From: Tribonema minus
Lineage: Eukaryota > Sar > Xanthophyceae > Tribonematales > Tribonemataceae
DNA: 64,000 nucleotides
Reading direction: 5' to 3'
NCBI GenBank assembly: GCA_017506865.1
Contig: JAFCMP010000312.1
Coordinates: 744,001-808,000 of the forward strand
Part shown: one piece after another, positions 8,513-64,000 of the stretch
How the letters are laid out: each line of letters begins with the position of its first letter
Position numbering within the stretch: the stretch's first letter is position 1
Position numbers and translations under genes: made by a program
Notes under the pieces: model-generated
Databases searched by the model: none
What the model was told of the DNA's origin: nothing
Seen by the model: the letters and a program-made list of their open reading frames with translations, nothing else

Positions 8513-11500
8513 TCAGTAGAACGTGAGTTCGTACGTGACAGGGCCCACGTAGAAAGTGTTGGCTCCAAATGGCACCTTCGCCTGCAGCTTTACCGTCAGC
8601 GTGCCCGGGCTGGTCACCTCTATCATGTAGGCATCGGCCACCGAGCAGGCAAAGTAGGGGGTAGCCAGTTCCCCCTTGGGGCTGTCAGGATACACCACAT
8701 CGGACCTCACGTTCTCGTCCACAAAGGTCAGCAGATAGGCATCCGCGGTAATGGTGATGGACTTCTGTATGCCTTGGCCGTTGACGCTGGACGTAATGGC
8801 GCCCTGAGTGCTGAGCGCGGCCTTGGCGACGGAGATGGAGGAGGACGGATCGGTGTCATCGAAACACACTTGCTGTGGCAGAGTCGCGGAAAGCAGGCAG
8901 GCAAGCATGCAGGTAGAAGAAAACTCCAGTTAGGGTTTAGGGTCAGGGTTAGGGCTAGGGTTAGGGTAAGGATTAGGGTCAGGTATTAGGGTAAGGCTAG
9001 TGATGGCGCCGGCAGTGCTGAGCGCGGCCTCGGCGACAGAGATGAAGGAGGACGGATTGGTGTCGTCAAAGCCTGTGGCAGAGTCACGGAAAGCAGGCAG
9101 GCGCTTTAGGTTAGGTCTAACCCTAAACCCTGACCATAACCCTATCTCGGTGTCATCGAGCATACCCCTGTGGGAGTGTCGCAGAAGCAGGCGGGCAGAC
9201 AGGAAAGCAGCCATGCATGCGTCAAAAGCTGCTGAGTTCAAACACAAAGAAAGAGAGCTGAAACGGACAGAGCAGGCCGTGCTGGCGAAGCAGGCAACTG
9301 CGTGTCGCTTGTCAGAGGGGTCATCGAAGCACACTCCCTGTGGAGCGTGGCAGGAGGCAGGCGGGCAGGCAGGCACACTGACAGGTAAGCAGTGCTTAGT
9401 CGTTCGCGCATTTGTCGAATGTTCCCTGACGTCAAACAAAAAACAAGCAAGGTAAGTACACAACGGACTGTTATGGTTCATGTGAAGTTGCTAAACATAT
9501 TGCACATGTTGTACTTGTGGTAGCAGGTGGCCGCGTATGCGTCGAGCGCTTGCTGAGTTCAAAAACGAATGGGTCGTTCCTGTTGATTCCATTCTGTTGG
9601 ACGGTGAGCCCCCTTACACGCACGGCGAGTTTGTCGAGTAAAGGCCCCGTGCTGCTTCTGCCAACTGCAACTACAACTTCAACTGAATTTTTGACAAGTA
9701 CGGTGGTGCGGAAACATATGTGGAAGTGCCAAATACGCCGTAAATACTGACGTTTTGTACCAGTGAAACGCACGTTGACGAACATTCAACTTCTGCACAC
9801 ACTGCAGAGAGGGCGTCTATAAGAGGTTTGTGGAGGGGAAGTGGGCCTTTCCGGTGTGCAGTCAGCGACAACAGCTCCATTCGAAGTCGAAAGTTACTTC
9901 AAAATCGCTTTGGCACCATATTCTCATATTTAAAAGGGCCGCGAGGGGGGCGGTTGTTTTGTGAGCGCCACGTGGAGGAGCTATCGGCGGCTCTGCCGGG
10001 GCAGAGTCGTATATGTGCTTTGGCACAATCCTATTCTAACCACTCGATGTGCGGCAAGAGGCTCACCAGAAGCAGGTTCTTGCACTCCGTAGGGTCCAAG
10101 CTGATGGACTCGCAGAACGCAGTGTCAGCAATGGGGCCGGCGTTGAAGAGGGGCACGTACAGGTACTGTGAAGGAACAGAGAGAAAAAGATAGAAAAAGT
10201 GAGCGGTGGCACACTCATATTCTCGTATTAAAAAGGGCCGCAAGGAAGTGCAGGGCTAGAAAAGAAGAAATCGGGCATCGCTAGAAAAGGAAAAGGAATT
10301 GGGCATCGAAGTACATGTGGGGTCAACGAGAACCAGGGCACGTGCACTGCCTGCGTATGGTGAAATACGAAGAAAGAAAAAAAAGAGGATTCAGGGAACG
10401 ATTGGGTATCCACCATCACTTTTGTTGTCAAGCCTTGGGTAGCGCGCCACGCAAGGTAATAGGCGCGAACATACAGTGTGGGATTTCAAGGCTCTGGTGA
10501 GTGGACTTGTGCAAAAAGTATTTGGAAATGCCCAATACGCCCCACATGCTGACGTTTTCGGCCAGTTACGGCGGAAATCCAACTGCTCCAAACGCCGCAG
10601 TGAGGGTGTACGAGTGGTTTTGTGGAGGGCAGATGTGACTTTTTTTCTTTGCGCAGTCAGAGACAGACATTGTCGAATCATTCTTGAGTTCCGAGTTTTG
10701 AGCCAAGTCATAAACCAAGTATTAGTCGGTACTCGGTGTTGTAGACACCCCGAGTATACTCGGTCAGTACTCACTCGGTCTGCAACAGAGGCAGCCAACT
10801 AATCAGTCGGTCTAGCACTGACTGGCGAGCTTCTTTCAGCTGCCCGTCGGATGGTGCGGTGGCTGTCGGTGCTCTGTGGCGCAGCCTCAATGCTTCCCAT
10901 CATTGAGCACCGACAGGTGATGCTCGTGGGTACACTGGCGAAGGAGCAGAAGTTATGACTGAACCGGCCAACATGTGCTCAAAATCGGTCAACACTCGTC
11001 TAAAATCGGTAAATACTCGCCTGATGACAACATTGCAAAGTACTCGGGGTCCGAGTAAAAACTCGACCTGGTTGCGGGCTGAGCCACATTACTCGTGACT
11101 CGGTGCTCTGGCCATTGACATTGCTCGGTCATGAGTCCACTCGGTTTTGGCAAGACATCCCCATAATCGCACTCGGGGGTCACACCTTGAGATTCAGCAA
11201 TGTCTGGTCATTGACGATAGCTCCGTTTGAGGTTGAAGATATACTTCAACATAGGCTTTGGCACAATTCTACGCATGTAACAGCACGGCATCTGTCATCC
11301 CAGGGGTAATTGCACGTGAACATTGACAGTGGGGGTCTGAGGAGTGGCGGACATAAGTTCAAGTTTAAAGTTCAGAGTCAACAGCTACTTCCTGAGCAGG
11401 CCAATAGCAAGCGCGTTGAAGCGGACATGCTCGATTTCAAGCTGAAAATTGAGGTTGAATTGTCTATTGATCCTGCACTTTAAAATGTGTGTCAGCGCGT

Positions 11501-14500
11501 TGCCAAAGGCTCTGGGCCAAGCACGTGAGGTCGAGCAGCAGCAGTCCTCATGGTTCTGCCTCATCTACAGCCAGACCAGTGCCAGTATTCTACAGGGATG
11601 CCCGTCAAAATGCTGAAGGAAACAGTGTCTCATATGTGTATGAGTTCACGTACCTTGTACTACTCAACCACTTAAGAGGCATATGGTCTAGCAGTACAAG
11701 AAATATGTTCGCGTTCGCCTGGCAACGACCTGTGGTTAGCATTATGTTCAGGTTTGCCTGGCAACGACCTATGATTAGCGATGGTGAGAGCGAGCTTGCA
11801 CGCCTGTGTAAGAGATAAATGAGAGCCTCCCGTACACCTTGTTCGTTCTATCTACAATCAATAGTCCTGAGGCACGTTCTAGCCCTTTTTCTAGTAAGAA
11901 GAATGCCTGTAATTATGGGTGGGGTACAGAGCAAGGCTGGGACTCTGGGCTCAGATGCATGCGCACATTATTTTTCTCCCTAATGCTGATCTGCTTCGCG
12001 CAAATCACGCGCAGGGCCGCAGCCAACAAGAAGCAGATAGTTGCGGCGCTGAGCAGGTCGTTGGCGCTGGAGATCGCAGAGCACGTCATAGGGTACGTGC
12101 GCGGCGCAGGATGCTGGGCTGCGTAGCGCGCCCGGTGTTGGCGCTGCTCAGACATGACTCTGCCTAAGCAGAGCCCCCGATAGCTCCTCCACGTGGTGCA
12201 CACAAAAACAACCGGCCCCTCTCGCGGCCCTTATCAATCCGAGACTATGAGTCCTCATGGTGTAATATCATGTACAGCCAAACCAGTGCAGTGTTCTGCA
12301 GAAATGTCCGTCAAAATGATGAAGCAAACAGTGTTTCATACGTGTATGAGTTCACGTACCTTGTACACAACGTAAACACTTCAGAAGCATATAACAGTAC
12401 GTAAAATATGACCGCATTCGCCTGGCAAAGACCTATGATTAGCGTTATGTTTGGGGTCAGCATTATGTTCGGGTTTGCCTGGCAGCGACCTATGATTTGC
12501 GATGGTAAGAAGGACCTTGCGCCTGTGTAAAAAGCACTACTACTTCAGAAGTAACTGAGAGCCTTAAGTACTTCTTGTACTACTCGTAATACGTATCTAC
12601 AAACGATTGATAATGATGAGGAAAATTCTAGAACTCTTTCTACTAAGAAGAGTGTCCATAATCATGGGTGGGGTGAAGAGCAAGGCTGGGGCTCTGGGCT
12701 CAATGTATACGCACGTTACCTTGTCGTCCTTAAGGCTGATTTTTGTTTTGGTAAGCGGGTGATCGATGTAGGTACTGCACCAGTGCAGTTCTCGGGAGCT
12801 TTAGGAGCACAGCTCCATATGTTTCTCAGCGACTGTTGTGCGTGTGTGGCCTCTGATTAACGCTACATAATGATGTCTCTAACTATAAAGAAATCCGCAA
12901 ATACTTATTCCGTACGAGCTTTAGGAGCACAACTCCATGGCAAGCGCTTCACAGCTCTGCGATATGTCTAGAAGAGGCCGTTTTCACTCTTGGTCCCTTG
13001 CAGAGCTAGAAGCAAACGCTGACAGCACGCAAGAACCACAAATGCCTGTGTCTTGGCGATGCAGAAAATGCTGACAGCATGCGATAACCACAAGTACGAA
13101 AGTATGAGTACCTTCTTCTCCTGGAGGCTGATCCTCTTCGTGCGGGTGATGGACGCAGAAATTGCTCCACTGCACTTCTTGGGCGCATCAGTCAGCTCCT
13201 TCTCCGTGCAGAACAGGCCCCCCAGCAGTATCACGCGCTCGGGCATGTTGACATCCAGGTATTGCTCTGCCTTGGCCGTGTTGAGCTGATAGGCCAGCCT
13301 GGCAAACGTCAAGCATCAATTCTCAGATTTTGCCCAAAGACACGAATGTGTGTGCATGAATGCCCCCCAGCAGTATCACGCGTTCCGGCATGTTGACATC
13401 CAGGTTTTGCTCTGCCTTGGCCGTGTTGAGCTGATAGGCCAGCCTGGCAAACGTCAAGCGTCATTTCTCAGATTTTGCCCAAATACATGAATGTATGCAA
13501 GTTCGAAGGAGTTGTAGGCGAGGGACCCTTCAGGGCGCGAGCCTTCTTCAATCACGTAGCGCGCGCGGCTCTGCACTAGGGATGCATCTGCGTTCGCAAA
13601 AATTAGCATGCTGATTTTTGCGGAATGTTGCGCAACGCCACCAATCAGCACTGGCGTTTTGTTGCTGAAGCAGCTCGGCACGACCGTTTACCAATCAGCG
13701 TGCAGGGGTTCAGTTGCCCAAGTTTTCGTTGCCTCTTGCATCGGGCAACACCAGGAAGCTGCGAGCTTATTCTTGCGCTGGCTCTCCAGCTCGCGAGGTG
13801 TTGCTGCACAGGCGGCGCTGACCGCATGCAGCGGTGCGGCGCTTAGCACATATCGTACTGCAGCCGCAAGCCCGCGGCCACGGTTCGCGGCCTGCAGAGC
13901 TCTCGAGGGCCAGAGTCTCCTACTTTCTCTACTTCAAAGCCGTTACGCGCAACTTCACTTCCGAGGCCATAACCCTAACTTAGGGCCAGAAACCAGAGTG
14001 GTGGTGTGTCGATGTGCTGAGCGTGGCAGCAAGGCTTAATGGCAATGCAGGTGTAATCCCGCAGCATGCCCAGATGTAATCCCGCAGCATGCCACATACC
14101 ATGACCTCAATGCAACAGAAAATGTGAGGTGGTGATGCACATGTTTCATATTCAAGCACATGTTGAGGTAATGGTCTCTGACTTGCTTTAAGTGCAACTT
14201 ACCAAAGAGGCTGTCTGTATTGTGTCGCTCACCCCTTATTCCTTTAGGAGGGGGGGGGTTTCTTGTACATGAATTCTAAGCAATTTGATCATGTGCACAA
14301 TTTGCTCTTCAGATATTGCTCTGCCTTGGCCGTGTTGAGCTGATAGGCCAGCCTGGCGAAGAAAACAGGCAGCATTTTCCTCAGACCTCGCTACATGCAC
14401 TCATGCGTATATGCGAACTTGACACAATTTGATCACTTACACAATTTGCTGGTAGGCGTGCCTGGCACACAGCGGCACAGCTGCACCACTTCTCAACTCC

Positions 14501-16382
14501 GCCCACGCACAAGCGCTTGAAGTAAAGTAGTAGTGAACTAGTTGTACATGATTATGTCTCCTATGCAAAAGCAACAAAGCGGTAGTATCTACTACTGAGT
14601 CGGTAGTAGTTTTTACTGGTACTACTATGATAGGTTGTGTACTGATCCGCCTGGTCAGAGTTGAGCTGATAGGTCAGCCTGGCAGAACAAAAGGCGGTGC
14701 CTTGCGCCGCGGGCTGAAGGCTTGCGAAGTACAGCAGTGTGCCAATACAGTTTACTCGGGTTTGCTCACTTGCGCGAATTTGTACTTCTCTGCCTTGTCC
14801 GAGTGGAGCTGGTAGGTCTGGGAGTGGTAGGTCTTGAAGTACTTCTAGTACTTTCTAGTAGGCTCACCCTACATGTTTCAAAGCAGAGCACTTGCTGGAC
14901 TATGAGAACTATGATGAGTGTGAAATTATAGACTCTCATGAGTGTGTGAACTCAGTGGACCAGCTGCTAAGCATCCAACCGGTGACTGTGGCCTTGTGAT
15001 AAGATTGCACTGGCATTCAGGGCGTGTTGCTGAGCAGGGCTGCTGAGCAGGCAGTCATAAACACGCCCGGTGGTAGGCTTAGGGTCACAGTCAGCTAAGG
15101 GGAGAATCAAGGTTCAGAGTTAGGGTGGACCTCAGCGAGTCGCCATGTAAGGGTTAGCGTTAGGGTTTAGTTTTGCAACGCTGCAGCCAATAAGAGACAG
15201 GTAGCTGTAGCGACAGTACACAAAAGTACAGTGCAACCGATGGTACGCAAGAGTACAGAACGCAGGAGATCGCAGAGCGCGTCGTTGCGTGCGGGCGCGG
15301 CGCAGGGATGCTGGGCTGCGTAGTGGGTGTCGGCACTGCTCAGACACAACTCCGCCTAAGCAGAGCTGCCGATAGCTCCTCCACGTGGTGCACACCTCCA
15401 CGTGGTGCACACAAAACAACCGGCCCCCCTCGCGGCCCTTTTCAATACGAGAATATGAGTACAGAGCGCGGCGCTGGCACAGGCCCCCTGAACGGGGGTC
15501 TAGCGGGCACCGTGACAGAGGAGCTGACAGCAGTAGCTGCTGGGCTGCGGTGGCGCTCTAGGTTTTAAGGGTTAGACTTAGGGTTAGGGTTAGGGTTAGT
15601 TTAGGGTTAGGGTCCAGTGCACATGGCCTACTCAATGTTGAGCAGCGCACTCCCTCCCATGATGACGGCGCAGCAAAAGACTGCAAGGTTTGTCGAGTAT
15701 CTAGCCATGCGCTCAGCGCTGTGCTCAAGGGGTAGAGGGCACACGCAAAGTGACGCGCAGAAGTGCAGCCAACAAGAAACAGATGGTTGCGTCAAACTTG
15801 AAGTGAAAGTCGTGAGAGCGTGCGCCCAATGTCGCGGTTACTCATACCCTAACCCTGTGTGACCAGAGCCGCTCACAAATTGTAGACGTTTCATAACACA
15901 AGTGATTGGCCTCCCTTGCGGCCCTTCTTGATGCAAGATGCTTCGAAGTAGCAGCTTCAGCAATGGTGCCTAGTGATAGAGCCACAGCAAGACTACTTGG
16001 GGATAGGCTCTTCATGAAGCCATTACCGCAAGTGCCCCTTTCAATTGCCTAGTCACGCAGAACGCCGGTGTTCACATTGCTCAGACATGGCGCTGTCCAA
16101 GCAGCGCCGCCCACAGATTGTCGCATTGCTGCCAACGAACAAGTAACTTAACTCCAGCGGTTGCGCTCACTCCCCTTCTCAGTACAAGAACAACTTGAGT
16201 GTGACGTCCATTGTATGTATGCTAGCGTCGTGCACGTTCGCGAACCTTCCATTAAAATACAGATACTTCAGTATGTCGTTACGCCGCGTGTTGATGCCGT
16301 TAAGCACAGCCCTCCACAAGCATTGCTCTTGCCGATGGCAACGCACGGTTTCGCACAACCGAGCTGGTTGCTGCTGTTGCTG

Positions 16383-16471
<89 letters not shown>

Positions 16472-20314: not shown

Positions 20315-23300
20315 TCACTCGTAGGAGGCGCCGTACGGTGAGCACTGAAGCTCCGAGATGCAGTACGCGTTCGTCCTGATGTACTGCAGCACCTCCCCCA
20401 CAGTCCAGCGGCACTCCGGGCGCGGGTGGAGCATGCAGTCTAAAACCCTGCACACACATGAGAGACACAACGTGTACATGAGTACTTGTAGACTTGAAGT
20501 GGTATGTAGCGGCACTGAGACTGCTCGCGGCGACTGGCCGGCGTGTGATGTGCAGGCATACAATGCAGAGCAATAGCTACTAAACAGACAATTGACTTGC
20601 CAAACAGTCGGTGTTACTGTATGTACAAGGTCAACCGTTCTCGGCGCTGTTCTCACCAAGAGGTCCACTTGTTTTTTTGTTGATCACACGCACGCACGCG
20701 TCTCGGCGAGGTACAAGGTGTAGCTTTCAAACGAGCCCATAGATGCGCTGTGAGCGCGTTCATTGCACAAGCGTAAGAGCTGCCTACAATCTTGCATACT
20801 TCGAAGTATTTCATACGGTTCCGCCCATGAAGTCAAGATAGAGGCATGCACGTTTGCCACTGCAAAGCACCCGTATAGCGTAGTACATGGCGTTTGGGTG
20901 GGGTTTGTTGGGGTTGGGTTGGACTCTTCGTAGCAACAGCATTGATACCCTTAGCACCAGTGCCTGGTGCCCAGTGATCATTTTGCCTAGAGGCGTGATT
21001 CAGACGTGTCAGCATGGTCCTCAGTTCTGGGCGCTGTCAAAGGCGACCCAGGCCCGCATAAATCTTTTTCAAGACGGGACAAGTGTGCCTCACGGCTGGG
21101 CAACCCTAAGTAGGGTTTGGTTGTGGGGTGTTGGTGGTAGTGTGAAGAGGGGGAAGCCTGTTTGCGGTTGAGTCTCTCTTCGGAGAAGGAATGTTGCATT
21201 GAGTGCACATCCAAAGAGAGGGCTTTTCGCGCCCCTTGCGAAGCGAAATTAATAAAAGTACATGGCGTCTTCATCGAGGATCAGCAATGAGTATATCAGC
21301 GGCCCGAGATACATCTAACATACGAGGCAATGAGCTGTTCACGGCAGTTTCACGGCAGCTGTAGCGATCAGTGACATCGCTTCAAACTGCGCATGAGCCA
21401 TCAACAGTGATGTTGCGCAGTTCTGCAAGCATACTGCGGATTGCACGACGATTGAGACCTTTGTTCAAAACCAAAACACACAACACGGTGAAAAACACGG
21501 TGAAAACGGTCAAAACACGGCAGAAAACACGGCACAAAACACGCAAAACACGATGCAAAACACACGCGCCTTTTGCCCGCCATCGTGCCGAAAAGGCACT
21601 TTTTCATGGATGGTGGGGATGGCTTGCCACCTGTCAGACGCGATGAAAGCGAGTGCCGAGCAAAGAAACTCATCAACTGCTGTGTTGTCTAAGGAGTACA
21701 GCAGGCCGCGCGCCTTCAAACGACCCGCAGCGCGTGTTTTTCAAGAAGCACGAGATGCAGCAATTCGCTCTCTTCAACTCTCTCTTTGCTGACGCCGCCG
21801 CCCTTGTAGGCGGCACCATTGCGTCAAGAAATGTTCTGATGACAATCTGATGTCCTTGATTGCTGCAGATGTGCTGCGGTGGTGCTGTTCAGCGTGCATG
21901 CGCTTGACCGCGGCTTCATGCCTTTCATGAATGCGGTGATTATTCACGAGGAAATGAGCAATGCTGCGTGTTTTCTTGCGTGTTTTGTGCCGTGTTTTTA
22001 CCCGTGTTCTGACCGTTTTCACCGTGTTTTTCACCCTGTTGTGTGTTTTGGTTTTGAACAAAGGTCTCAATCGTCGTGCAATCCGCAGTAGCATAGAGAG
22101 AGATCAAGTCCTAACCCTAACCCTGACCCTAGCCCTAGAACGCTGCACAAACTTCGAACGACATGCATGAATCTGCGGTACTCGACAACAGTGGCCATTT
22201 TCCTTTCATCACCTTCTGAGATCCTGGGGCACATTGAGCCCGTATGCCGCCCAGTGGCGCCAGAACAGCTTCTGAGAGCAGCCAGCAGGCCCCCAGTTCA
22301 GCAGCCCAAACAGCCGCTCCCCTGGGGCCTCCTGACGTGACATCAGCAGGAATAACAGGGCAGGAGCCGGTGAGTGTGCAACTACTCCAATGCAGAATGC
22401 AGTGGAATGATGTCATTTGAGCACAACTTGCATTTTCACCTACAACGCCAAGCAGCAAATGATCAATACCGCGCTTGCTACTGGACGAGTAACCATCTTG
22501 TCACGGAATGACATAATGCTCAACACACTTGAGAACATGATGGGAGTGGGGCTAGGGCTGTGTGTGTGTCATTGCTCGGCATCCGGTCAGCGCTGCGCAT
22601 GCTTCTTGCCCCTCTGCAAATGATAACAACCTAAAGACATGTTGTCACGACCCGCTGAGATGGCACAAGAAAATGTGTGTTTCACGGGCAGGAGAAGCAG
22701 GCCTGGGCTTTGCAATTGCGCCACTCTGCTGGCAGCAGCCTCTTTGCTACAAACATCAGATTTGAAGTTCGGTTGTCTATCGCTTTGAACGCCAGGACGT
22801 TTGCTGTGAACTACCGTGCTTAAGTATATTGAACCCTCTAAATGCTGGTATGCCAGGACCGTCACTGCAGTAGACGCTCTCTTGAACTTGCATCTTTGCA
22901 ACACCAAGGCAGACCAACAGCAGCAGCAGCAGCAGCCATCTGATGCCCTTACAAGCAGTACGACGGCACCATACCTGGAACAGGTTCAGCGTGTGGATGC
23001 GGTTCGTGTACTTCCCCAGCAGCCCCTCCGGGTCCTCCTCCTCCTCTTGAGCATCACCATCACCGTCATCCCCCCAGTCATCAATCGCCACTGCCACGCC
23101 CCCCTCGAACCGCGCGCCGCGCCGGTCAAGGATGGCCTCTATCGCCAGCGTGAAGAACGCCGAGATGCCCAGCGAAAATATGTCACCAGCGCTCAGCAGC
23201 TGCAGGTCCTCGGGTGCCCGTTCTATTGCGCGGTACTCGCGCAGCTTCTCCGCGCAGCGCTGCTCCAACGCGGACCAGCGCTCGGGGGGCTGGTAGCACG

Positions 23301-42837: not shown

Positions 42838-42891
<54 letters not shown>

Positions 42892-46769: not shown

Positions 46770-46851
46770 AGCAGCAGCAGCGGCGGAAGCAGCAGCAGCA
46801 GCAGCAGCAGCGGAAGCAGCAGCAGCAGCAGCAGCAGCTGCTGCAGCAGGG
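46770..46851. repeat. Interrupted CAG tract
   Basis: (CAG)n with GGAAG interruptions. Confidence 0.9.
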
Positions 46852-46859
46852 GCAGTACC

Positions 46860-48488: not shown

Positions 48489-51400
48489 ATGGAGAGGGTG
48501 AAATCATCAGCTACGCTCTGCGTAGTAATTTTTCTGCTCTTTGCGGTGAGTGCGATGGCCTTTGTGGCTGCAGCTACGCATGGACTCGGAGGCGGTGTCA
48601 AGCTTCATGCTGCTGCTGCGGACTCTTTCGACTCTTTCGACAGCTTGCAGGTACGTCCTGACCTCACTTTTCGACTGCTTGGCGAACCTTTCGTGTACCT
48701 GTTGTAAAATCTCAACTTGCCTGCTTGTCGCTGGTTCAACAGCTGACGAGTCGTCAGAGCCTCGATCTGCTGCGCCCCGTATACTGTATTCAGATTGACG
48801 TGAGCCCATGCTTGACCTGCTGGTACTGCATGTAATTTCGCGTAGGACATGGTGTGACACTGCCTCATGCTTCAGTACCTGATGGCTTAACCTGCCGCTG
48901 CACAAAACGCAAGTTCACCGGCGTAATAGGCGATGCTGTTATCGTGAGGCATGCCTGAGTCATCAAACCTCAACACGCACCTGTGATCAGGAGGTCAACA
49001 GTGGTTGCTATACATTGTGTAGTGTACCAATGAACCGCTCGTGCATTGAACGCAGCGCTGCTGCCATCTCGCTCCGTTGGCTGAAAATACTGCGTCCCAG
49101 TGACACATATGCGCGATGATGCCATCGACAGTTGGCGGCTGCAATCAGTGAGCGATTTGACCTGGATGTTAGAACATAGAGAGATGAGTAGCCCCCCCCG
49201 GCTCGCAAAGCCACCTTTTCGCATGCTTTCAACTAGGTGTGAGGGAAACACTGTTTTCTGTGCATGGTCAATGCCACTGCAGCCTGTTTCTGTAGCATCT
49301 AGGCGTGCTCAACCACAGCTACAGTCTTTGTAGAGCGCAGGAACCTCCATCAAACAAGTTGTGCAGAGTGATGTCTGTCCCGCATCATCATGCTTTGTCG
49401 TCGAATCGTTCAAGTCATTCACCTGTGACCAACTGCTCCCGCTCATCCCTAACCCTAACCCTGTCGTCGTAGCCGTCGCGCAGGCCTTCTAACCTACCCT
49501 ACGCAGAGCTGCACGCGCCTCACAGCATCACCTACGTTTGCCGCCGCCACCGTTACGCAGGCCTTTGTGCCCGCGCTGCTTTGGCGGAGCTGTCTGCGTA
49601 CACCCATCTATGCGGCTGCTCGTTCTCTTCTTCATAACCCAAGCCCTGACCCTGCTCAGACCGCCTTACGCGTCACCACAGGCACACTGGCTTACCACCT
49701 CAGCCCCCCCCCCCCCGCCCTCCCCCCCCGCGAGCACCGCCCTCCGCCGCCGTCGTCGTGCAGGCTCACTACCCAAGGCGTCTCGCTTGTCTGCGCCGCT
49801 GCTAAACATAGCCACAACCCTAGCCCTGATCCCACTAAGACCCCCATCACGCGTCACCGCATGCGCGCTGGCTCACCAGCCCCCCCCCTTCCCCCCCCCC
49901 CCCCCCTTACCCCCTCCCCCTGCAGGCCTTTGCGCGCGCGCTGCCCAAGGCGGAGCTTCACGCCCACCTGCATGGCTCAGTAAGGCCCGCCACCCTCGCG
50001 CAGCTCACGCGCGAGAGGGGGCTGCCCCCTGTGCCCTTGCTAGCGCGCCTCATGGCCGCACCCGGCGGCGTCAGTGGCAGCAGCAGCGGCAGCGGCAGCA
50101 GCGGCGGCGGCGGAGGCGGCGGCGACAGCGGCAGAAGTGCCGGCGGCAGCGGCGGCGACGGTGGCGGCTGCGGCAGCGGCGGCGGCGGAGCGTGGCTGCC
50201 CTCACTGGAGGAGGTGTTCACGATATTCGACGCGGTGCACGCGGTGGTGAGTGAGCGCACGCGTGCCGTGTGAAGACTGCTCGCTGATCGCGAGGGCTTG
50301 GTGCAGAAGCTTTCACTGCGAGTGCTTGGTGCCAAAACCGCTGTGCGCGAGGGTGTTGCCAGGTTCGGGGTGGCGCGCGCGGCAGTGAGCACAGCGCGCG
50401 TCACCTATGTGCGGAGGCTTTGGTTGCCAGGGCCTTGCAACGGTCAACGCGGCGCACACAGTGGCGGGCGAGCAAGCGCATAGTGTCCGGGCAAATCTTG
50501 ATTCGCGTTTTTTTTTGTGTGTATTTGCCTTTGCGTGGTGTCTGGCAGCAAACCGGAGAGCACGGTCACCAGCCCATCCGTGTGGAACTGGAACCCCGAC
50601 CCCCTTTTCTTCGCTGCTTGCTCAGGATCAACACACACCGATCAGCCATGCCTTATTCGGTACTTGACAACAACTGCTTTCAAAGTGTGTACACATGTGT
50701 ACACGTGCGTAGGTTGCATCTTACATGACGACAAGGCTGCCTCGCGCAGTTGCTTGACATTGACATAATGATGATGAATGCTGTCCTGGCTGGTATATTA
50801 TTAGGGTTGCCAAAACGGTATTATTGAAAAAATACGGTCAACGGTATTTGTAGCGTACACCATGCTGATCTTGACCACAGCTTCGGGTGCCCTGAGGTTT
50901 ATCTTCGGGCTTACTGTGCCAGACGCAAGAATGGTATCGAAGTTCTCCAAAACCTCAATAGGCAGGAGTTTACGGTCAAATAGGTACGATTTACGGAGTA
51001 TATATGTAAAAAAGGTACGGTTCTGGCAACCCTATAGTGATATTGCACACGCCATGACACAATGGCGACTTTAAATGCTATACCAGCAGGTGCTGAAAAT
51101 GAACAGGGCGCGGCGCATCGCGCGCGAAGTCCTGGGTCAATTTGGAGTTCAAGTTACCTTACTTCAAAAATGCTCAGCCAACTGAATACACAAGAATAGC
51201 AATGCTTGCCCTCGCAGGTGCTGGACAGTGATACGGTGCGGCGCATTGTGACGCGCTTGACACTTTCGAGTTGAAGTTACATCTCCCCGAAAATGTCACA
51301 CACTGCTCAGCACATACTTCAGGCATCATGCGTGCTTCCTGCTGGCACTCCATGATGATGACAGATATTCTTGTGGCAGGCATTGGACAAGTTGTGCTTT

Positions 51401-54400
51401 TTGAAACGACAGTGTCTCATGGAAACACTGGCACTTGCAGGTGCTGGACATGGACACCGTGCGGCGCAATCGCGCGCGCGGTGCTTTACTTGAAGTTGAA
51501 GTTTTTCATTTGTGAACATAAAAAATACTCCAACCTGACACCTGAGAACGGCTGCCCCTGCAGGCGTATCACGGGCGATAGGTGCCATCCTGGCAGGTGC
51601 TGGACACGATATACTTGTAGTTAACGTTCATCAAAGCCATGGACACAGTGCGGCGCATCGCGCGCTTGAGGCCCTGGGCCAACTTGAAGTTCAAGTTACC
51701 TTGCCTCCTTAACAAAGCTCAAGCATAGAAAACACAAGAAATGCTGCCCTCGCAGGTGCTGGACATGGAGACAGTGCGGCGCATTTGCGCGCGCAGCCCT
51801 GGCCGATTACAAGTTGAAGTTATATCGCTTTCGCACACATAACAGAGCGTGCTCAACACATACCACAGGCATCACTTGTGCTTCTCACTGGCACCCCACA
51901 ATGATGAAAAATGGGCTTGTGGCAGGTGCTGGACAAATTGTGGTTTAACACAGTGTCACATGTGAATGCTGTCCTCGCAGGTGCTGGACATGGACACAGT
52001 GCGGCGCATTGCGCGCGAAGCCCTGGCCGACTTTGCCGCCGATGGCGTTGTGTACGCGGAGCTGCGCACGACGCCGAGACCGCTGCGCGACGGCACGACG
52101 CTCGAGGGGTACGCCCGCCAACTTCTTGAGGTGACTCTCCCCCCCCCTCCCCTTATTAACTTCATTCACTGTCTTTATTGTACCGCACAAGTGGGCATGA
52201 CGTGCGAGGGGTACGCCCGTCAACCTCTTGAGGTGACTCTCCCCCTCACCACCGCTAGTAATATCACTGTCCTTAATGTACCGCACAAGTAGGTGCGCTT
52301 CAGCACGATGCACGAGGGGGTACGCACGCGAGCTTCTACGCGCGTCGACTTCTTGAGGTTGCTCTCCCCCCCCCCCCCAACCCCTAGCAGTTTTATGTCG
52401 CTGTCTTCTTAAAATGTACCGCATAAGTCTATGCGCTACAGCACGACGCGCGAGGGGGTATGCACACGAACTTCTCAAGGCGACTCTCCCTGCTGTAGAC
52501 TAACACTAAACGCTGAGCACTGACTAGGCGAACAATGCGCGCCCGCAAAACCACAACAAACTACAGGTTCTCGCGGAGTGCGAAGCGGAAGCGCAGGTGC
52601 TGCGGCGCCGAGCGCTGATGCACGTTGCGAGGCATAGCACTTCGCCACTCCGAGCGATCGCTCACCAACAACTGACAATCCTCCATTGGCGGCTGCTCAT
52701 ATGTGCGCAATCAAATCCTGCTGCGCATTGCTGAGAGGCGACTCATGTTGTAACGTTGTTCAACCGCAAAAAACAAACACAGGTTTTTGCGGAGTGCGAC
52801 GCGGAAGCGCAGGTGCTGGCGGCGCTGAGCGCTGACACATGTCGAAATAGTGGCGACTTGACGGGCGCGCTGCCATGTGAGCACGGGCTCATACCTAGAC
52901 TGCTGCTGAGCGTTGACAGGGGGAAGTCCGTGGACGCCGCATGGGAGGTGAGTTCAAGTTGAAGTTGGGGGTTTGAAAGTGTCTGTCCCGCGCAGCGCCT
53001 GCAATACCTAGCATGAGTGGAAGCTTCAACACCTCGACAGCAGAGCACTTTGCTTCGTTGCTGAGGGCGAATGAGCACCTGACGGCCCTCCTTGCGTGTG
53101 ACGAAGCGTCTGTTGGTGAGCATCGCAAGGCTGCCGGCAGAGAGACGGTTTGATGAACTGACCTTCAGCTTACTCGAGCCTGCTGCTGACATTGGCAGGG
53201 AAGAGGCAGCAAGGAATCACGTTGCAGCGATCACCTGTTGCAGCTGCTTTAACTCATGCAACCACACTGCAGACGACTGTTGGTCCACTTAGCGCTGGCG
53301 TTGTAGCACTATGCTGATGCTCAGAGATGCTTCCCTGCGCCCAAATCCACAGGTGGTCAACCTTGCAGTGGATCTGTTGAAAGATGCGCAATACGTCAAG
53401 TACCTGGTTGGGATCGACCTGAGTGGCAACCCTGCAAAAGGACGGTTTGAAGACTTCGCCGGGCCTCTACAGCACGCACGTGCAGCCGGCCTGAAGGTGA
53501 GCATACCCTACATACTGTATGGTAGCCTGAGCAAAACTTTGCGGGGCCCGTGCAGCTGGTCTGAAGGTGAGCATGCCCTACATACTGTAAAGAGGCTTGA
53601 GCGATTATCCCAATCCTGCCAAGTGGCGCTTTCATGACCGTGCGGGGTCTGCTAAGGCTTACCTGTGCCGCTGGCCTGAAGGCGAGCATACCCTACATCT
53701 GTACAGTGACCTGAACGGCAACCGTAACCGTCCGAAAGGACACATGTAGGGCAGCATCATCTCTCCAAATACTGCAAATGCGGTGTTTGAGACAACGCCG
53801 CTCTTGCCACTGCGCAACGTGCTGCGTTCGCTGTCTGTCGCAGGTTTCCGTGCACTGCGCCAGACATGCGGACCATACTGGATTTCATATGAATGTTTCA
53901 CGCAGGGGTATCTCCAGGCCTAACAGCACACCCCTGTGCGCGCAAACGCGAGTTCACTCGCTACTGATACAAGACGAAAAACCCTTGACCGAGCCGTTTA
54001 CCACTGCGTGCTGCACCTGTACCCGTGTGCCTGCGGTCTCGCAGGTTTCCGTGCACTGCGCTATACTTCAACACAGCATCATCTCGCCAAATACAAATGC
54101 GGCGTTTGGGTCAACACTGCTCTCGCCACTGCTAACATGAAATGTGCGCTGGCTGTCACAGGTATCCGTGCACTGCGCCGAGGTTTACAACCCCCCAGAC
54201 ACGCAGGCCATACTGGACTTCAGCCCGGACAGGCTCGGGCACGCGCTGCACCTCACCAGGTGAGTCACCGCGGAACGGGAACTTGAAGTTGTAGTGGTGG
54301 TTCACCATGGCTGGGGGGAGATTGGACAGGGGAACTAGAAGTTGACAAGTCACGATGCTGGGGGGAGATTGAAGCAGCTGCGGCAGCGTGAGGATTTGAA

Positions 54401-57400
54401 GTTTCTGCGGCGAGTTGCTGCGGTTGCAGAGATTGAAGTAGCTCTCGGCGGTCGTGAAAGGACCCGTGAACAGTCAGCGAGTGTCACATGCGGAGGTACC
54501 GCTGATTGCTGCCCTGCTGTTGCGCAGCTACTGCATGTCCTTCAAACTACCATCGATTGCATGTTTCCTGGCATCAGCCGGGTCGGCTTCGCGGTGCTAG
54601 ATGCTCAGCGCGGTGCCCAGTGCTCAGCGCGGTGACCAGTGCCCAGCAAACGGCTGCATCTGCCTCACGGTACTGTGAGATGCTCGCAGCATAACATGTA
54701 GCAGCCTGCAACCCTTCCGCAGGCCTGCTGCTGGCTCCACTCTGCGACAGCTAAAGCAAGACCAGTCACAAATCAGTTATAACCAAACTACTCTGCAATA
54801 TCCTATAAGTTCGAGCCACCTTGGGTGAAGACTTTTGGCGCGTTCTGGCTCAGACTTTCCTCAAGAGAGGCTGAGAGCTGCCCAGTATGCGCTCGGAGCC
54901 AGAGGGGCTTCAATGGATGCAAACTGACAGTAGCTTTGCATGTAGAATCTTATGCTTATCATGTGTGCACACTAGGGTAGCACGAAAATGTATTTGGCCA
55001 CACAAATACGGCGCATTTGGGGCGTATTTGGCAACCAGGAATACGTCTTGAGCAAACCTCAACACGATAACATGCTGCGCAAAGGGCGTATTTGAGGGGC
55101 ATGTGGTGAGTCTGCTCAACTCCGAGCATACAGCCCTCCACAAAAGGGACACTTGAACTAAGACATAAACTTCAAAACGCTTTTTTGCAACCCTAGTGCA
55201 CACCCATTGCGGTGACTGCGCCACTGATCTTCATGCCCTCAGTTCCTTGCCACGCCTGCGTATCAACGCCGCTTCAACAGTTGTTCGGATGAACTTACCC
55301 AACCCTGGGCAGTGCGTGCTGCACTGGCTGCTCTCCCTTCATGCCTTAATGTCCATGCGTTGACTGCGCCGCGACACTTCAAAGCAGGTGCTCACTCACC
55401 TTGTGTGGGCAGCGCGCAATGCACTCCGTGCCAATCTCCTCTGTACCGACTTTTCTTGCGTTGTTTGTGCAGCGACACTTCAACACTTGCTCACTCAACC
55501 TTCAACTTGTGTGGGCAGCGTGCGCTGCACACGGTGCTAATCTTCTATGTACATACTTGCCTTGCGTTGTTTGCGCAGCGACGCTTCAACAGTCGCTCAC
55601 TCAAACTTCGACTTGTGTGGGCAGCGTGCGCTGCACTGGATGTTGACCTTCTATGTACGGGCTTTCCTTGCGTCGTTTGTGCAGCGACGCGCTAGACCGC
55701 GTGTTGCGCAATCGCGTGCCGGTGGAGGTGTGCCCTACAAGCAACGTCATCACACTGGGGCTTAACGGTCACCACGAACACCCCACAGCCGCCACGTGGC
55801 TGGCTCACGAGCACCCTGTCAGGTCAGTTCAACTGCCGAAATCTGATTTTGTGACATTCTGTTATACTGTAAACTAGTGCAATGTAGTACTTCAAGAGCT
55901 TAGAAGTACCTTGATGACGTCAATTTGTTGAGCTTCCACGAGCACCCTACGGCCGCCACGTGGCTGGCCCAAGGGCACACCATCAGGTCAGTTCAACTTG
56001 ACCCAAGTGTATCATGAGTTCTATACCTGTGTGGCAATCTGTGATACTGTCTGTTTTGAAGTTTATTACTTCAAAGCACATAATGAGTTTGATGACGTCA
56101 TCACGCTGGGGATCAGTAGGCATCATGAGCATCCCACGGCTGCCACAGCCGCCACGTGGCTTGCCCAGGGTCACCCGGTCAGGTTAGTTCGACTTAAACT
56201 TTGAAATCAGACATTTGGTTTGCACTCAGGCGTCTCCAGCAAGTGAAAGATCATGGAGCTCGAAGATCTTCATGAAGACACTATATGTATAGGCTCAGGG
56301 GACTCAATTATGTCTGTTAAATCAGCAGAGCAACAGTACAAAGCGCATTCTCCACGGTGCGCCTCGCTTATTGTCTGAATAGTGAAGGGCCCAAAGCAAA
56401 GCAGAAGTTGAAGTTGCACTTGAGGTAGCAAGCCCGGTTACGCGTCAAACGTCTTCACCAGCACGCCGCACAGGAGTCATGGCCAGCCTGTCAGGACGCC
56501 AGTGCTATGTTAATAACAGCCCTACATTATCAAGTAAAAGTTTTGACTCAGAACACCAGGACATCCTGTGTATACGCATGGCGGCACCGCGTGATCGCAG
56601 CCAGTGACGATCATGTGGTTCGGCCGTTAGCCATACGACACCCGAACTGCAAGCGCTGCGGTGGTGATGCTACGGCTTTCAGTGACTCATTGGGCCCTCA
56701 CCTGTATCTCTCTGCCCGAACAACTTCACCATGGCAATGCGCGCAAAGTGCGGCCGCACCCTAGCGTTAGGGTTAGAGTGGGTATGAGGGTTTCGAGCTG
56801 CGCATTTACTGCTCACGTTGAGAGACGATGCGGTGTGAAACTGTTCTGTGGATGGAAACATCTTTATCCAAATCAAGCAGCACTTACTGGATGACCCCAC
56901 TCGCCAGTAGACTGCATGATGTTGTCACCCTGAACCACTACCATCATGACCTCAGCAAGTGAAACCTGCCTTGTTGGAGTGCTGGCACAAACTTCAACGT
57001 CAGGTGCTACTGCGTTGTCTGCCTGTCCTGTGTGGACCGACTTTTCGCATGAGCTCTTTAATAAGAGCAGGTGTAGCTAACCTAACACTTTCGCCAGGTG
57101 TCGTCTTGTTCCGCGATCCAGTGCAGCCAAGTCGCGCCACTTCTGACGCGCGACTTCCCCCCGTTCTCTTCTGCCACCTGCGCACCACTGCGGCAGCATC
57201 AACACGGACGACGCAGGGGTATTCTCTACATGCCTGTCGCGAGAGTACGCGTCCGTGGCGGCCGCCTTTGACCTGGACCTGTCACAGTGCTCAGCGCTGG
57301 CAGTAGCGGCGTTCTCTCAGGCCTTCGATGCGCGCACCAGCGCCGCGCTGCTGCCCCTCGTGCGCCGCCGCTGCGACGCGCTGCTCGCTGCGCACGCTGG

Positions 57401-57464: not shown

Positions 57465-58429
57465 CACGAGCACCGGACTTGCAGCTTCCCACACAGAGCT
57501 GCTGTGAAACGACGGGTGCCTCTGATGCAGTAGAACCTTGTTCGGCGTGACGTCGATCGAGCTGCTGCTCTCCATTACCAGGGATTTGTGTGCGACCGAA
57601 CACAGCTAGCGGTTGTCACACACACATCAGTGTTTGTGCCGCCAACACCAAGTACAGGGCTTGGTGTTCTGCCCAGTGAGTGCTCCCACTTTAGCCTCCA
57701 TATGGGTGGCGCTGGCGCTGCCGCTGCTGCTGATGGCAGCGATGCGCGCGCTACGCATTGCCGCTCCCGACGCCGCAACCATCAGGTGACGCGTTGGGCA
57801 TCCCACACCTGTGATGGGTGTTGTGCTTGAATTCGAGATTGGGCGATGACTGCGCGTGCCCCGCAACTGCAATGGTCAACGGCGTGCGCCAGTGCACCCT
57901 GCCGCTGCCGGTAGAGCTGCTGGTCACGACCAGCGGCCAACGATGGATGCCGCCACCACACGCGCAACCAGCGCCTGGCCGAAATACTTTGCAGCATTTG
58001 CGTCAGTGATGGTTTTCGTGGCGGCGAACGCGTGCTGTCTTCCCTGAGCACTGCAGCATGTGGTGCTTGTCGGCGTTGAGCGGTGATGGCAGCGAGAGAT
58101 GCAATTTGAAGTGACCACTGGATACAGCCATTTGTGGCTGTTGTACGTATGTGTACATAGGTCTTGTACATAACATGCCTGCAGGTGTAAATACGATGAT
58201 GGCGTCAAGCACATGTAGTCCGCCTCTGTCAACACAGCTGTTGACACTCTTGAACCTGTACCTTTGCAGTGCCTGTTGCTTGGAAGACTGCAATGCATGC
58301 ATTATAATGAAGTGCGCACTTGAAAATACCATGCCTCGCAAGACTCTGTGGCGTGCGTGCATGACTGGCACACCAGCTTTATTGCAAGTGCACACAGCTG
58401 GGCACTCCTGATCAAGTGTGGTACTTGTT

Positions 58430-58775
58430 ATCAATTCTCGCTCAGGGCGCGAAAAAGCCCAGATGAATGGCATCTAACTTGAAGCTTGCTGTACGGAATC
58501 TATACATGTCGTGTGACAGTCTCAAAGTGTCTCAACGACAACCACTCAAACGCCGCCGCCGCCAAATGGCACTTGGGTCAACACACATGGTGCCAAGTGC
58601 AGTTTGATTCAGCAGGCACTTGGTGTACTTTTTATTAATTCTCGCTCAGGGCGCGAAAAAGCCCAGATGATTGGCATCTAGCTGTAAAGAATCTACATGT
58701 CGTATGACAGTCTGAAAGTGTCGCAACGACAACCACTCAAACGCCGCCGCCGCCAAATGGCATCTCGGGGTGTAC
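58430..58775. repeat. Tandem duplication, period about 200 bp
   Basis: ATTCTCGCTCAGGGCGCGAA begins at about 58434 and again at 58637. Both units continue through TGACAGTCT.AAAGTGTC and CAACCACTCAAACGCCGCCG. A third, inverted copy lies at 45345-45440, so the unit is a dispersed element. Confidence 0.9.
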
Positions 58776-60615: not shown

Positions 60616-61096
60616 AGCATATGCTGATCGACGGAAAGCGCAGCTCTCCGTGAGACCTTGTGTACTATGACGCTCTCAATAGCCACGCGCGCTACGGCAT
60701 ACTCAGGGAACACATCGCATGATTTGACACATACACGAATGGGCCGGTTCTGGCACTGCTCTCTCAGCCAGCAGCGAGCAGCCCCCCCACAGAGTGCAGC
60801 AAGTACAAGAACTTGAGTTCGGACAGCCCTGCTGCCCTCTAGAGCAACTCCGCCTGCTCTCTGGCGCCCTTGTCAGCACCCAACCATAGGGGGATGTGTA
60901 GCCTTCCGCTGCAGCTGCCCATCACACTGCAGACACCTGCTGCCATATCTTCGTCGCGACGCTCAACCTCCGAGCACTGCTCTTACAGACCGGTTTCTGC
61001 GTGGGGGACAGTGTGCACTGGCAGCCACGCAGGCCCTGCTGCTGCTGGTGCAGGACAAGGAGTGGCCGCACAACACACTTCCGTCTACTTCAAGTC

Positions 61097-64000
61097 TCAT
61101 GTGAACTTGTAGTCAACGATCTTGCCGGCGTTGACACGGCCATCGCCGTAGCGTGCGTCTGTGCCGTGCCTGCCGATGTCGTCGGCAGTGTCCTGCAGGA
61201 GGGCAGGTATGCAGACACAAAACATAAAGTTGGTATGTGCTTCGTGTCCACCCGCATGGGGGTGCAGAACCCCTATGAAGAAGTCGTAACTTCAGGTAAA
61301 AGTGAATTGAGTTTTGGGCTCAGCGAAAAGCTCAGCAGCAGAAGTGGTGGTCAACGCGCTTGTTGCATCATGAGTGAGTGCCACTGCTGGGCGCGACGCA
61401 TCAGGCTAGGCTAGCGACATCTCAATCACATACGCTATGAAGAAAACAGCGCACGGGGCCGCAGTGCTTGATTGAGCGCTGCCTCTAGAGTACTCAAGAA
61501 GTGCTTTTCGCAGGTGCGCAACAAGTTTTTGCGCCCGCTTCATGTACTAGTAGAGCCCAATCACAAGTTCGACAATAAACAGCATTAGTATCGTGGTGCG
61601 CAGTCAGCACATTGCTGTTGGTGCCCGTGTCAACCGCCAAGTATCTCAGCGTGGCGCCTGCGCACTGCTGCACCCGTTGCAGCGCTCACCTCAGTGCGAT
61701 GCCTGCGCAGTACTTATTCACGCGCGTGGGGTAGATGCGGTGCCCTTGCCTTCACTATCGTAACCCTCTTCCTGACCGTCAGACTACGTACACGGTATAT
61801 TTTCTAAAAGTAATACCCTAACCAAAAAAGTTATCTCGACAATGGACGCCTTGAAAGTCCTGTAGCTGTAGCGCACTTCTAGCATCACTCACCTTACCTG
61901 TGGCGCTTCTAGTATGCTCGCGGGGGAGTGGCGGCGTGCGGCCCTCAACATATCACCTTTAACGAACCACTATCACGTAAACAAACGAACAGTTCACACC
62001 GCCTACCCACAGCGCTTCTAGCACGAAGCTGAAATTAACCATCATGGCCCAACCTATAGCAATTTAAGCATGCAATGCCATGCATGCAGACAAGCAACGT
62101 CACGACTTCAACATCTCAAATCCAAACCCCACACCAAACCCGTACCATCATTTAGCTACCTCAAAGTATCGTTGAGAGTGCGCAATGGTCGAGGTGTCCC
62201 CACCTGCAACGCCTCTAGCACACGCGCGGGAGACAGGCGGCGCCCCGCCTTGGACATCATGAGCGCGACGACACCGGTCGCGTACGGCGCCGACGCGCTA
62301 GTGCCGGCGGACCAGGAGTAGTAGTAGCCCAGCCCGTCTGCGTAACAGCACGCGCCTGCACAGATTCGTTGAATGAGCAGGGGTCGGACGTTAGTCACAA
62401 TGAGAACAGAGCGCGACAAGGAGGGCTGCTGTGGCGCTCCTGCCTGCACGCCATGCGCTAGTGCTGGCTCAGGGGTGCAGCATTTGGGGCGGAGTGTCAC
62501 TTTGAGAATGTCGTGGCAAGAACAGGCACTGTTGCGCTAGTGCCAGTGGACCACCAGTAGTAGTAGCCCAGCCCGTCCGCGTAACAGCATGCTTCTGCAC
62601 AGGCGCAGATGCATTGAATGAGCAGAGGTGAAATGTTAGAAGGTCACGATGAGGAGTAACAAGGAGGGCTGCTGTTGCGCTCGTGCCTGCACCCCATGCT
62701 CTACATAGCAGTAGCTCAGGGGCGCAGCAAAGGGGGAGTGTCACTCTGAAACTGCCGAGGCAAGAAAAGGCGCTGTTGTACTAGTGCCGGCGGACTAGGA
62801 GTAGTAGCCCAGCCCGTCCGCGTAATTGCACGCGCCTGCACAGGCGCAGATGCGCCAGATGAGCAGGGGTGGAATGTTAGAGAGTCACGATGAGGAGTGA
62901 CAAGGAGGGCCGCTGTAGCGCTCGTGCCTGCACGTCATGCGCCAAAGGTAGCCCAGGGGTGCAACATAGGGGCGGGCTGAGTGTCTTTTTTTAGCGCAGC
63001 GCGACAAGAAAATACGCTGATGCACTAGTGCCAGCGGAACAGGAGTAGAGTAGCAGCCCAGCCTGTCCGCGTAACAGCAGGCGACTGCGCAGGCGTGGAT
63101 GCATCGAATGGGCGAATGTGGGGGTATTAGGACCGCAGTCATTGCAATGAGTGAACAAAGGGGGGGGGGGGGGGGTTGACTAGGGGGGATGCTGATGTAC
63201 TTGTGCCTACGCACCATGAGTTGTTGATTGCGTAGCCCAGCAATCAGCATAGGGGCACAGAAGCAAGCTCCACTTGAAGTACCACGTCAGCACGCCTCAC
63301 CGAACACCCAGTCGAGGACGGCGCAGGACACGGTCAGCGGCGGCTGGCCGGGCTCTGAGCACTGTGCCGTATTGTGCACTTCAAGTACATATTTACTTGA
63401 AGTTCGCATCAGCACCCCTCACCGAACACCCAGTCGAGGATGGCGCAGGATACGCCTGGCCGGGCGCTGAGCACTGCGCCGTATTGTGCACTTCAAGTAC
63501 ACCTTCACTTGAAGTACCACATCACTTCAAGTACATCTTTACTTGAAGTACCGCGTCAGCACGCCTCACCCAACACCCAGTCGAAGACACGGTCAGCGCC
63601 GGCTGGCCGGGAGCTGAGCACTGCGCAGCATGTGCACGTCAAGTACATATTTACTTGAATTATCGCATCAGCGCGCCTCACCGAACACCCAGTCAAGGAC
63701 GGCGCACGACACAGTCAGCGCTGGCTGGCCGGGAGCTGAGCACTGCGCCGTGTTGTGCTCGAGCGCCGCCCTGGTGTTGCCGCCGGGGGCCGCAAAGTTG
63801 ATGACGGACGAGCCGTAGTTGGAGTACGGCGCGAAGCGGTCGAAGGCGGTGTGGTCGGGGTCCTCGCCCCACAGGTACGGGCCGGTGGCGCTGCGCGGCA
63901 GCGGGTGAGTGCGAGTAGAGTCAAAGTCAGAGGGGAGTCCGCAAGGGCTCTGACGGCGCTGTGATAGACAACAACCTGAAGTCCCAATGCATCAAGACCT
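61097..64000 (-). CDS. Subtilisin-like serine protease (peptidase S8), C-terminal exons, partial
   Basis: Minus-strand exons: 63890-63682, 62355-62204 and 61192-61097 (TGA). Phases (1, then 0) agree. The first exon visible reads YSNYGSSVINFAAPGGNTR, the beta-strand region before the active site in subtilases. The second carries the catalytic Ser motif SWSAGTSASAPYATGVVALM, with GTSxxAP as in family S8, followed by a helix (LSPARVLEALQ). The last reads DARYGDGRVNAGKIVDYKFT, the usual GxGxxNA end. The Asp and His residues and any signal or propeptide lie beyond the right edge; 63891-64000 is intron. Cys residues before the Ser (QCSAPG, VSCAVL, ACCYADG) suggest a disulfide-bonded, secreted enzyme. 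Both larger exons carry decoy arrays. Confidence 0.85.
62515..63095 (-). repeat. Three decoy copies of the subtilase Ser-exon start and acceptor
   Basis: On the plus strand the real edge contains GTAGTAGTAGCCCAGCCCGT then GCGCCTGCACAG. Copies occur at about 62525-62605, 62770-62845 and 63015-63090, spacing about 245 bp. They stop within the exon before the catalytic motif is complete, so they cannot encode active sites. Confidence 0.9.
63285..63640 (-). repeat. Three decoy copies of the subtilase upstream exon end and donor
   Basis: GCCTCACCGAACACCCAGTC (plus strand) marks the real donor at 63676-63695. Copies lie at about 63294, 63416 and 63565. Each unit also carries GGCTGGCCGGG..TGAGCACTG and a pair of inverted words ACTTCAAGTA / TACTTGAAGT. 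Confidence 0.95.

Follow-up and report, generated by a model that had tools for sequence, protein, structure and literature searches.

Small tandem duplications are already known. In the excerpt of PMC8355091 at hand they are traced to breaks with complementary 3' overhangs, which are filled in by Pol alpha-primase and CST and joined by NHEJ. The arrays described here share with them short direct tandem units, and two young borders here are blunt; the insertions of that excerpt are under 100 bp and have no tie to exon edges, whereas here the median period is 166 bp and the units mostly straddle a splice junction. In potato, an intron gain for which a part of the account was available (PMC4974935) came from a duplication that copied the upstream intron-exon structure, i.e. 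from the same kind of event as here, but there the new intron and exon arose in one event, while here many events per gene left copies within existing introns. The AGGT signature of intron gain by tandem duplication was seen in 0 of 69 introns. Introners, in the accessible portion of PMC9860276, place repeated sequence in the introns of many genes, as is the case here. No family of sequences common to our introns was seen in the sampled loci, however, and the units match their own exon edge. Tandem exon duplication is a local, direct duplication of gene pieces. The present arrays are equally local and direct, but whole-exon copies number 0 over 111 exon entries.

A paper on Ectocarpus transposons treats intron length and tandem repeats and, in the part at hand, not junction arrays (PMC12477816). 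In the open literature, as covered by titles and abstract openings and with subscription papers mostly outside the scope, we found no description of junction-centred duplication arrays or of an exon-edge bias. In other words, the small tandem duplications are known, and it is their bias to exon edges for which the open literature gave us no description.

Exon-edge copies in the window

The window, i.e. the whole stretch of 64,000 nucleotides that was analysed (C312:744001-808000), belongs to a genome of 158 Mb in 554 contigs. It was compared with itself by BLAST, and 21 exons from five genes were compared with 2.5 kb of flank on each side; low-complexity matches were removed from the BLAST comparisons via an entropy filter. 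Nineteen of the exons are the output of a home-made gene predictor (four of these were forced on it), and the boundaries of the other two, 52790-52947 and 53354-53496, were read by eye. As the predictor also produced spurious tiny exons in the window, only selected exons were used. An Rfam scan of the window found nothing.

The self-comparison returned many local direct duplications, and a base-by-base reading of the deaminase gene shows the pattern claimed in an earlier note on this DNA, namely copies of exon edges next to exons in all five genes. Such copies lie near 12 of the 21 exons, spread over all five genes (three of the 12 cases are weak), and at none of the other nine; the exon numbers given earlier matched in part. 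A copy number of two to seven had been stated, and our count of one to six per edge, plus a seventh of 20 nt at 50775, agrees with it. The nearest-copy periods are about 100-260 bp, with one of 433.

The gene names fared unevenly. Peptidase_C48 is above the Pfam cut-off in one of the two frames given for the protease gene, A_deaminase and Peptidase_S8 match slightly under theirs, and the kinase-region frames given to Pfam had no match; we assume the name 'kinase' from the earlier reading and from motifs recognised in the predicted gene product. The exons and their copies are as follows.

8513..8872, minus strand: secreted-protein gene exon, acceptor edge copied upstream (forced gene model, BLAST)
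9000..9097, minus strand: copy of the acceptor and start of exon 8513-8872, 82 % (BLAST)
9317..9361, minus strand: second, more diverged copy of the same edge, 78 % (BLAST)
13112..13285, minus strand: secreted-protein gene exon with acceptor-side array (gene model)
13362..13497, minus strand: young copy of the edge of exon 13112-13285, 94 %, period 145 bp, 69 nt of exon plus intron
14310..14360, minus strand: copy of the edge of exon 13112-13285, 96 %, 51 nt (BLAST)
14639..14684, minus strand: copy of the edge of exon 13112-13285, 83 % (BLAST)
22975..23289, minus strand: kinase exon (name of the earlier reading) with acceptor-side array (gene model, BLAST)
23408..23601, minus strand: two acceptor-side copies of the kinase exon, 23408-23458 and 23548-23601, 89 % each
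39988..40082, plus strand: diverged acceptor-side copy of the protease exon, 76 % (BLAST)
40425..40743, plus strand: ULP1-type protease exon (Peptidase_C48) with copies on both sides (Pfam, gene model, BLAST)
40812..41103, plus strand: two donor-side copies of the protease exon, 40812-40951 and 40983-41103, 85-88 %
49926-50246: deaminase exon with a weak edge copy of 35 nt (BLAST)
51074..51806, plus strand: six acceptor-side copies of deaminase exon 51981-52130, starting at 51074, 51201, 51434, 51588 (19 nt), 51638 and 51740
51981..52130, plus strand: adenosine-deaminase-type exon with copies on both sides
52194..52490, plus strand: three donor-side copies of exon 51981-52130, 52194-52245, 52337-52378 and 52432-52490
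52544..52618, plus strand: acceptor-side copy of deaminase exon 52790-52947, 87 %
52790..52947, plus strand: deaminase exon with edge copy, boundaries by eye
53354..53496, plus strand: deaminase exon with edge copies, boundaries by eye
53546..53703, plus strand: two donor-side copies of exon 53354-53496, 53546-53589 and 53665-53703, 90-91 %
54207-54259: deaminase exon with a weak edge copy of 28 nt (BLAST)
55450..55584, plus strand: two short, weak acceptor-side copies (27-29 nt) of predicted deaminase exon 55685-55727
62204..62355, minus strand: subtilase exon (Peptidase_S8, just under the Pfam cut-off) with acceptor-side array
62534..63092, minus strand: three acceptor-side copies of exon 62204-62355, 62534-62625, 62781-62843 and 63015-63092, period about 240
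63276..63626, minus strand: three donor-side copies of exon 63682-63890, 63276-63377, 63404-63489 and 63545-63626
63682..63890, minus strand: subtilase exon with donor-side array (gene model, BLAST)

Among the exon-edge copies of the window, the one at 13362-13497 comes closest to being a complete tandem unit. Two other kinds of repeat were seen. A dispersed repeat of about 130-150 bp occurs in both orientations (45355-45486, 58421-58571 and 58625-58771 in the window, and loci L015, L022 and L052 on C51, C279 and C7) and is probably a mobile element unrelated to the arrays. Triplet runs of the CAG/TGC or GCA/GCG type lie at 16369-16466, 32888-32944, 42731-42907 and 46769-46849 and in some frames translate into stretches of S, A, G or C.

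Geometry and placement of the duplications

Exons elsewhere in the genome were identified by Pfam searches for adenosine deaminase, chaperonin and kinesin, which gave 67 exons, each with 1.5 kb of flank; L010, itself a copy, was removed from the exon counts. The pattern recurs in these other genes, which lie on many contigs: 21 of the 67 Pfam-defined exons have a copy of one or both edges, i.e. 4/7 deaminase, 12/30 chaperonin and 5/30 kinesin exons, the kinesin sample consisting of the strongest matches, many with long exons. A 37-nt match 710 bp away at L032 is not counted among the 21. The arrays meet Pfam exons more often than expected by chance: 41 of the 76 do so, circular shifting gives 27.1 +/- 3.6, and 0 of 1000 shifts reach the observed number.

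The geometry was examined over 111 exon entries, a set unusable for frequency since nine window exons in it were picked for having copies. The exon start is present in 60 copies lying upstream and the exon end in 66 lying downstream, so that all 126 edge-bearing copies lie on the side expected of units straddling a splice junction, as had been claimed; whole-exon and wrong-side copies both number 0. Another 34 partial copies extend to neither exon end. At the 51 of 62 junctions whose period is up to 260, the nearest copy is at a median distance of 166 bp, and the exonic part of the unit has a median of 55 nt. Around 156 exon edges, 98 copies are direct and 2 inverted. Of the 20-mers just inside exon edges, a fraction of 0.25-0.33 has a same-strand copy within 700 bp, and opposite-strand copies amount to 0-0.04 over all offsets. 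A few copies register as partial Pfam matches, upstream at C530:453478 and C51:21979 and downstream at C5:353415 and C548:210919. The copies are mostly 2-25 % off their exon and single arrays hold copies of differing divergence, which agrees with the range from near-identical to decayed noted before and is not what one sequence assembled repeatedly, i.e. an assembly artefact, would give.

We interpret the arrays as the product of a recurrent small tandem duplication whose breakpoints bracket exon-intron junctions, and put the probability of this reading at about 0.5. One break would lie some 20-120 nt within the exon and the other in the intron, and the 90-260 bp or so between them (median 166) would be duplicated as a direct repeat. 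Such a unit spans a single splice site, and the site of the intact exon still yields a normal mRNA; the duplication would therefore be tolerated and the extra copy would turn into intron. The copies would then decay near the neutral rate, and further duplications would build the arrays; at least one duplication apparently began inside an existing copy (read by eye).

A possible alternative, to which we give clearly less than an even chance, is that only survival is biased: duplications of about 166 bp would fall uniformly, those inside exons would be purged, intronic ones would decay unseen, and those crossing a junction would stay visible through their conserved exon arm. Uniform placement in simulated genes with short introns already puts about 0.36-0.38 of the tolerated events across a junction. 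Moreover, the junction-adjacent intron parts of copies show an all-column identity of 0.58-0.61 versus 0.79-0.89 for the exon-derived parts of the same copies (random, 0.48). Since the intron parts decay faster, purely intronic arrays drop from view sooner, and much of the apparent centring could therefore be better preservation. When exons were masked so that only intron parts could match, 12 of 61 arrays abut an exon versus 198 of 1187 simulated, hardly above the null. The same masking gave a mixed outcome for pairs with an identity of 80 % or more, of which 25 out of 42 derive from an exon or abut one. In five arrays, by our own reading, the identity reaches 90 % or more and the match falls short of the period by 12 bp at most; three are junction-anchored or exon-derived (window 13217, L050 and L063) and two intronic (L073 and L062), a number too small for power. 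The matched length over period is 97/97 in L073, 98/101 in L062 and 133-136/145 at window 13217, and most other pairs of at least 90 % match far less.

Three results speak against survival as the sole cause. The first comes from annotated genes that were curated by hand: predicted exons that were short, lay off the expected protein or copied an adjacent exon were deleted, and the ends of a few others corrected (the intron set was treated alike). Of the 50 arrays in six affected genes, 45 are junction-anchored in that they touch an exon edge or derive from one (C279 6/8, C530 5/5, C135 7/7, C4 7/9, C445 10/10, C235:145-155k 10/11), i.e. 18/20 in C279, C530 and C135 and 27/30 in the tRNA-synthetase regions L073, L075 and L076. 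As C279, C530 and C135 had been annotated in the knowledge that they are affected, the fairer set is that of the four tRNA-synthetase regions, which were fetched before any look for copies and give 28/33. Four free or nearly free genes give 1/6, and all ten genes 46/56. Simulated uniform duplication with purifying selection gives 0.36, 0.47 and 0.60 at intron decay of 1, 1.75 and 2.5 times the copy rate; the highest of these stands against 0.90 in the affected genes and 0.85 in the tRNA-synthetase regions. The binomial tail is 2.7e-6 for 45/50 and 0.002 for 28/33 at p = 0.60, and 0.0007 and 0.04, respectively, at p = 0.70. A uniform null with purifying selection falls short of the observed pattern at the simulated rates of intron decay, in support of the earlier interpretation.

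The second result concerns the array ends, from which L002, one array spanning an exon, was left out. Ends inside the exon, up to 120 bp outside it and farther away number 11:4:6 on the 5' side and 17:1:6 on the 3' side, against simulated 68:85:173 and 80:76:151 (older events, 62:61:152 and 54:56:125). Ends just outside exons are therefore far rarer than ends just inside (5 vs 28), while the uniform simulation has them about equal. Third, the exonic share of the unit is 0.367 (SD 0.142, 51 junctions), smaller and narrower than the 0.540 (SD 0.235) of uniform straddling, and 0 of 4000 simulations are as extreme on either count; this test is independent of the detection of intronic arrays, and alignment trimming or later deletion may shorten the measured exon part and so lower the share.

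Part of the apparent junction centring comes from selection and part from the faster decay of intron than of exon-derived sequence. If introns decay about five times faster, beyond the simulated rates, most of the junction excess could vanish. On balance a true bias to exon edges is the likelier case, but it is not proven.

Decay of the copies and other proposed origins

The copies decay at about the neutral rate. Copy and exon differ by 0.097, 0.064 and 0.160 at the three codon positions, copies among themselves by 0.196, 0.096 and 0.188. At the first and third positions the values are as expected of neutral copies next to an exon whose changes are mainly synonymous; neutrality does not account for the smaller difference between copies at the second position.

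It is improbable that selection keeps the copies for a function in splicing, be it as decoys, as recursive-splicing steps or as enhancer reservoirs. The copied AG is intact in 37/40 and the GT or GC in 38/42 copies of at least 85 % identity, and the exon-derived parts are better conserved than the adjoining intron, also when copy is compared with copy. The splice dinucleotides, however, are retained only about as well as neighbouring exon bases, third positions show no bias between copies, and the examined exons of sister chaperonin subunits lack copies except for one weak match. The coding constraint expected of functional alternative exons was not seen either, since gaps break the frame in 36 of 95 copies, though differences are fewer at second positions. 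The suggestion that the process manufactures decoy splice sites thus fits the outcome, but no function is shown. As to splice sites in general, many exons begin with GT after the AG, and a conserved CCT exon ending at C279 806026 (minus strand) appears to use a donor of the GC-AG type (AAG|GCGAGT), which is kept in the copies below.

The earlier note had also considered insertion of processed junction fragments. An origin from RNA or cDNA, or by template switching from processed transcripts, would account for units that hold exon edges and straddle splice sites, but is very improbable: spliced exon-exon joins occur in 0 of 69 introns, inverted copies number 2 against 98 direct ones, and the copies found lie near their own source. 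Furthermore, intron-side homology past the splice consensus is clear (z > 3) in 25/40 acceptor and 23/42 donor copies, i.e. in 48 of 82, and undetectable (z < 2) in 5/40 and 13/42. An origin from spliced RNA is largely refuted, and the interpretation of the earlier note as a whole is partly supported.

A mobile intron-type element (introner) carrying or duplicating splice sites would explain several units per intron in genes on many contigs, but has hardly any probability left, as no family common to units of different genes appeared in 245 cross-locus BLAST rows (72 loci and the window, a sample of the genome), which consist mainly of paralogous exons, with a few intron matches among C530, C5 and C516, low complexity and one dispersed repeat. 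Intron gain by tandem duplication of an AGGT-bearing exonic stretch (the Rogers model) is just as remote, in spite of the exons that start with GT after AG and of the potato intron newly made by duplication across an intron-exon border (PMC4974935, in the part at hand), because the intron start resembles the next exon start in 0/69 cases and the intron end the previous exon end in 0/69 (introns of up to 150 bp counted, not compared), and the nearest copies lie a median 166 bp from the junction while the 69 introns have a median of 659 bp.

Differences between genes and the possible source of breaks

The genes differ conspicuously in their load of copies. In five chaperonin genes (C5, C51, C135, C279:802-811k and C544) 12 of 14 exons have copies, and in four others (two on C235, C279:41-47k and C511:165-169k) 0 of 16 do, the weak L032 match apart; none of 20000 label shufflings among chaperonin exons reaches this clustering by gene. 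Edge copies also occur in three of the tRNA-synthetase genes and almost not at all in the fourth. Among the laden chaperonin genes we recognise what we take to be CCT delta and theta, among the free ones eta and epsilon; alpha, also free, was named by database match. Among the at least 120 matches to the CCT-alpha stretch, the closest that are listed with an organism name are those to two brown algae, Hapterophycus canaliculatus (89 % at a query coverage of 82 %) and Choristocarpus tenellus (84 % at 76 %), so that the genome is probably that of a brown alga or of a near relative.

The subunits of one complex are expected to be similarly expressed. As CCT subunits differ in their copies, expression alone is unlikely to cause the heterogeneity, and the same holds for essentiality. 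C279, C235 and C511 each hold laden and free genes, which might point to chromosome domains. The duplication model leaves the copy-free genes unaccounted for.

Several candidate signatures were rejected. Telomere-like hexamers, pooled, number 65 in 50 kb of laden genes versus 22 shuffled, and 13 in 43 kb of free genes versus 20; but a single gene contributes 33 of the 65, two laden genes lack them, and the counts in the three laden tRNA-synthetase regions are 8, 3 and 2 versus about 4-5 shuffled, so that they form no signature. That one gene, of the adenosine-deaminase type (C530:451699-460721), has its 33 hexamers in 9 kb versus 4.4 shuffled, and most other affected genes show no such excess. 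CTTCAA/TTGAAG motifs occur in the introns of laden and free genes without clear position. Poly-C is commoner in the laden chaperonin, kinesin and deaminase loci and is not a mark of the tRNA-synthetase regions, and GC content (by eye) does not separate laden from free genes.

Two deaminase-like paralogues on C479 (251524-251703 and 276806-276985) lie in opposite orientation about 25 kb apart and are 85 % alike over 2.1 kb; no junction arrays were found at the one exon examined in each. The searches also showed four long open frames of 1560-1572 aa with near-equal SNF2-type helicase scores (G000, C21:82070-83428, C90:803646-804998, C179:191725-193077 and C359:4278-5630), perhaps a mobile or viral gene family.

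To return to recurrent tandem duplication at junctions, the events could, by analogy with the known small duplications, start from staggered breaks (offset nicks) that are filled in and joined end to end. Among the near-complete young units, blunt borders without microhomology are found only in L073 and L062, both intronic. The breaks may truly be commoner at exon edges, rather than only better preserved there, and junction chromatin, paused polymerase and R-loop edges are candidates for placing them. More tentatively, splice junctions themselves may be break sites: nicks tied to transcription or splicing would hit the two strands on either side of the exon edge, spaced by roughly a nucleosome length, at a paused polymerase, an R-loop edge or a positioned junction nucleosome, and fill-in would then duplicate the stretch in some genes or domains, feeding intron growth and supplying material for new splice sites.

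If breaks do focus on exon edges, this would be a mutational process guided by gene structure. Introns would grow longer through it, dead splice sites would be scattered in them and material for intron gain provided; the process itself could be counted by comparing strains. The exon-like fragments in the introns of this genome would then be debris, which is of consequence for gene prediction. Even if survival alone were at work, exon edges would be a long-lived record of local duplications that are erased elsewhere by intron decay, and the rate of these duplications would become measurable.
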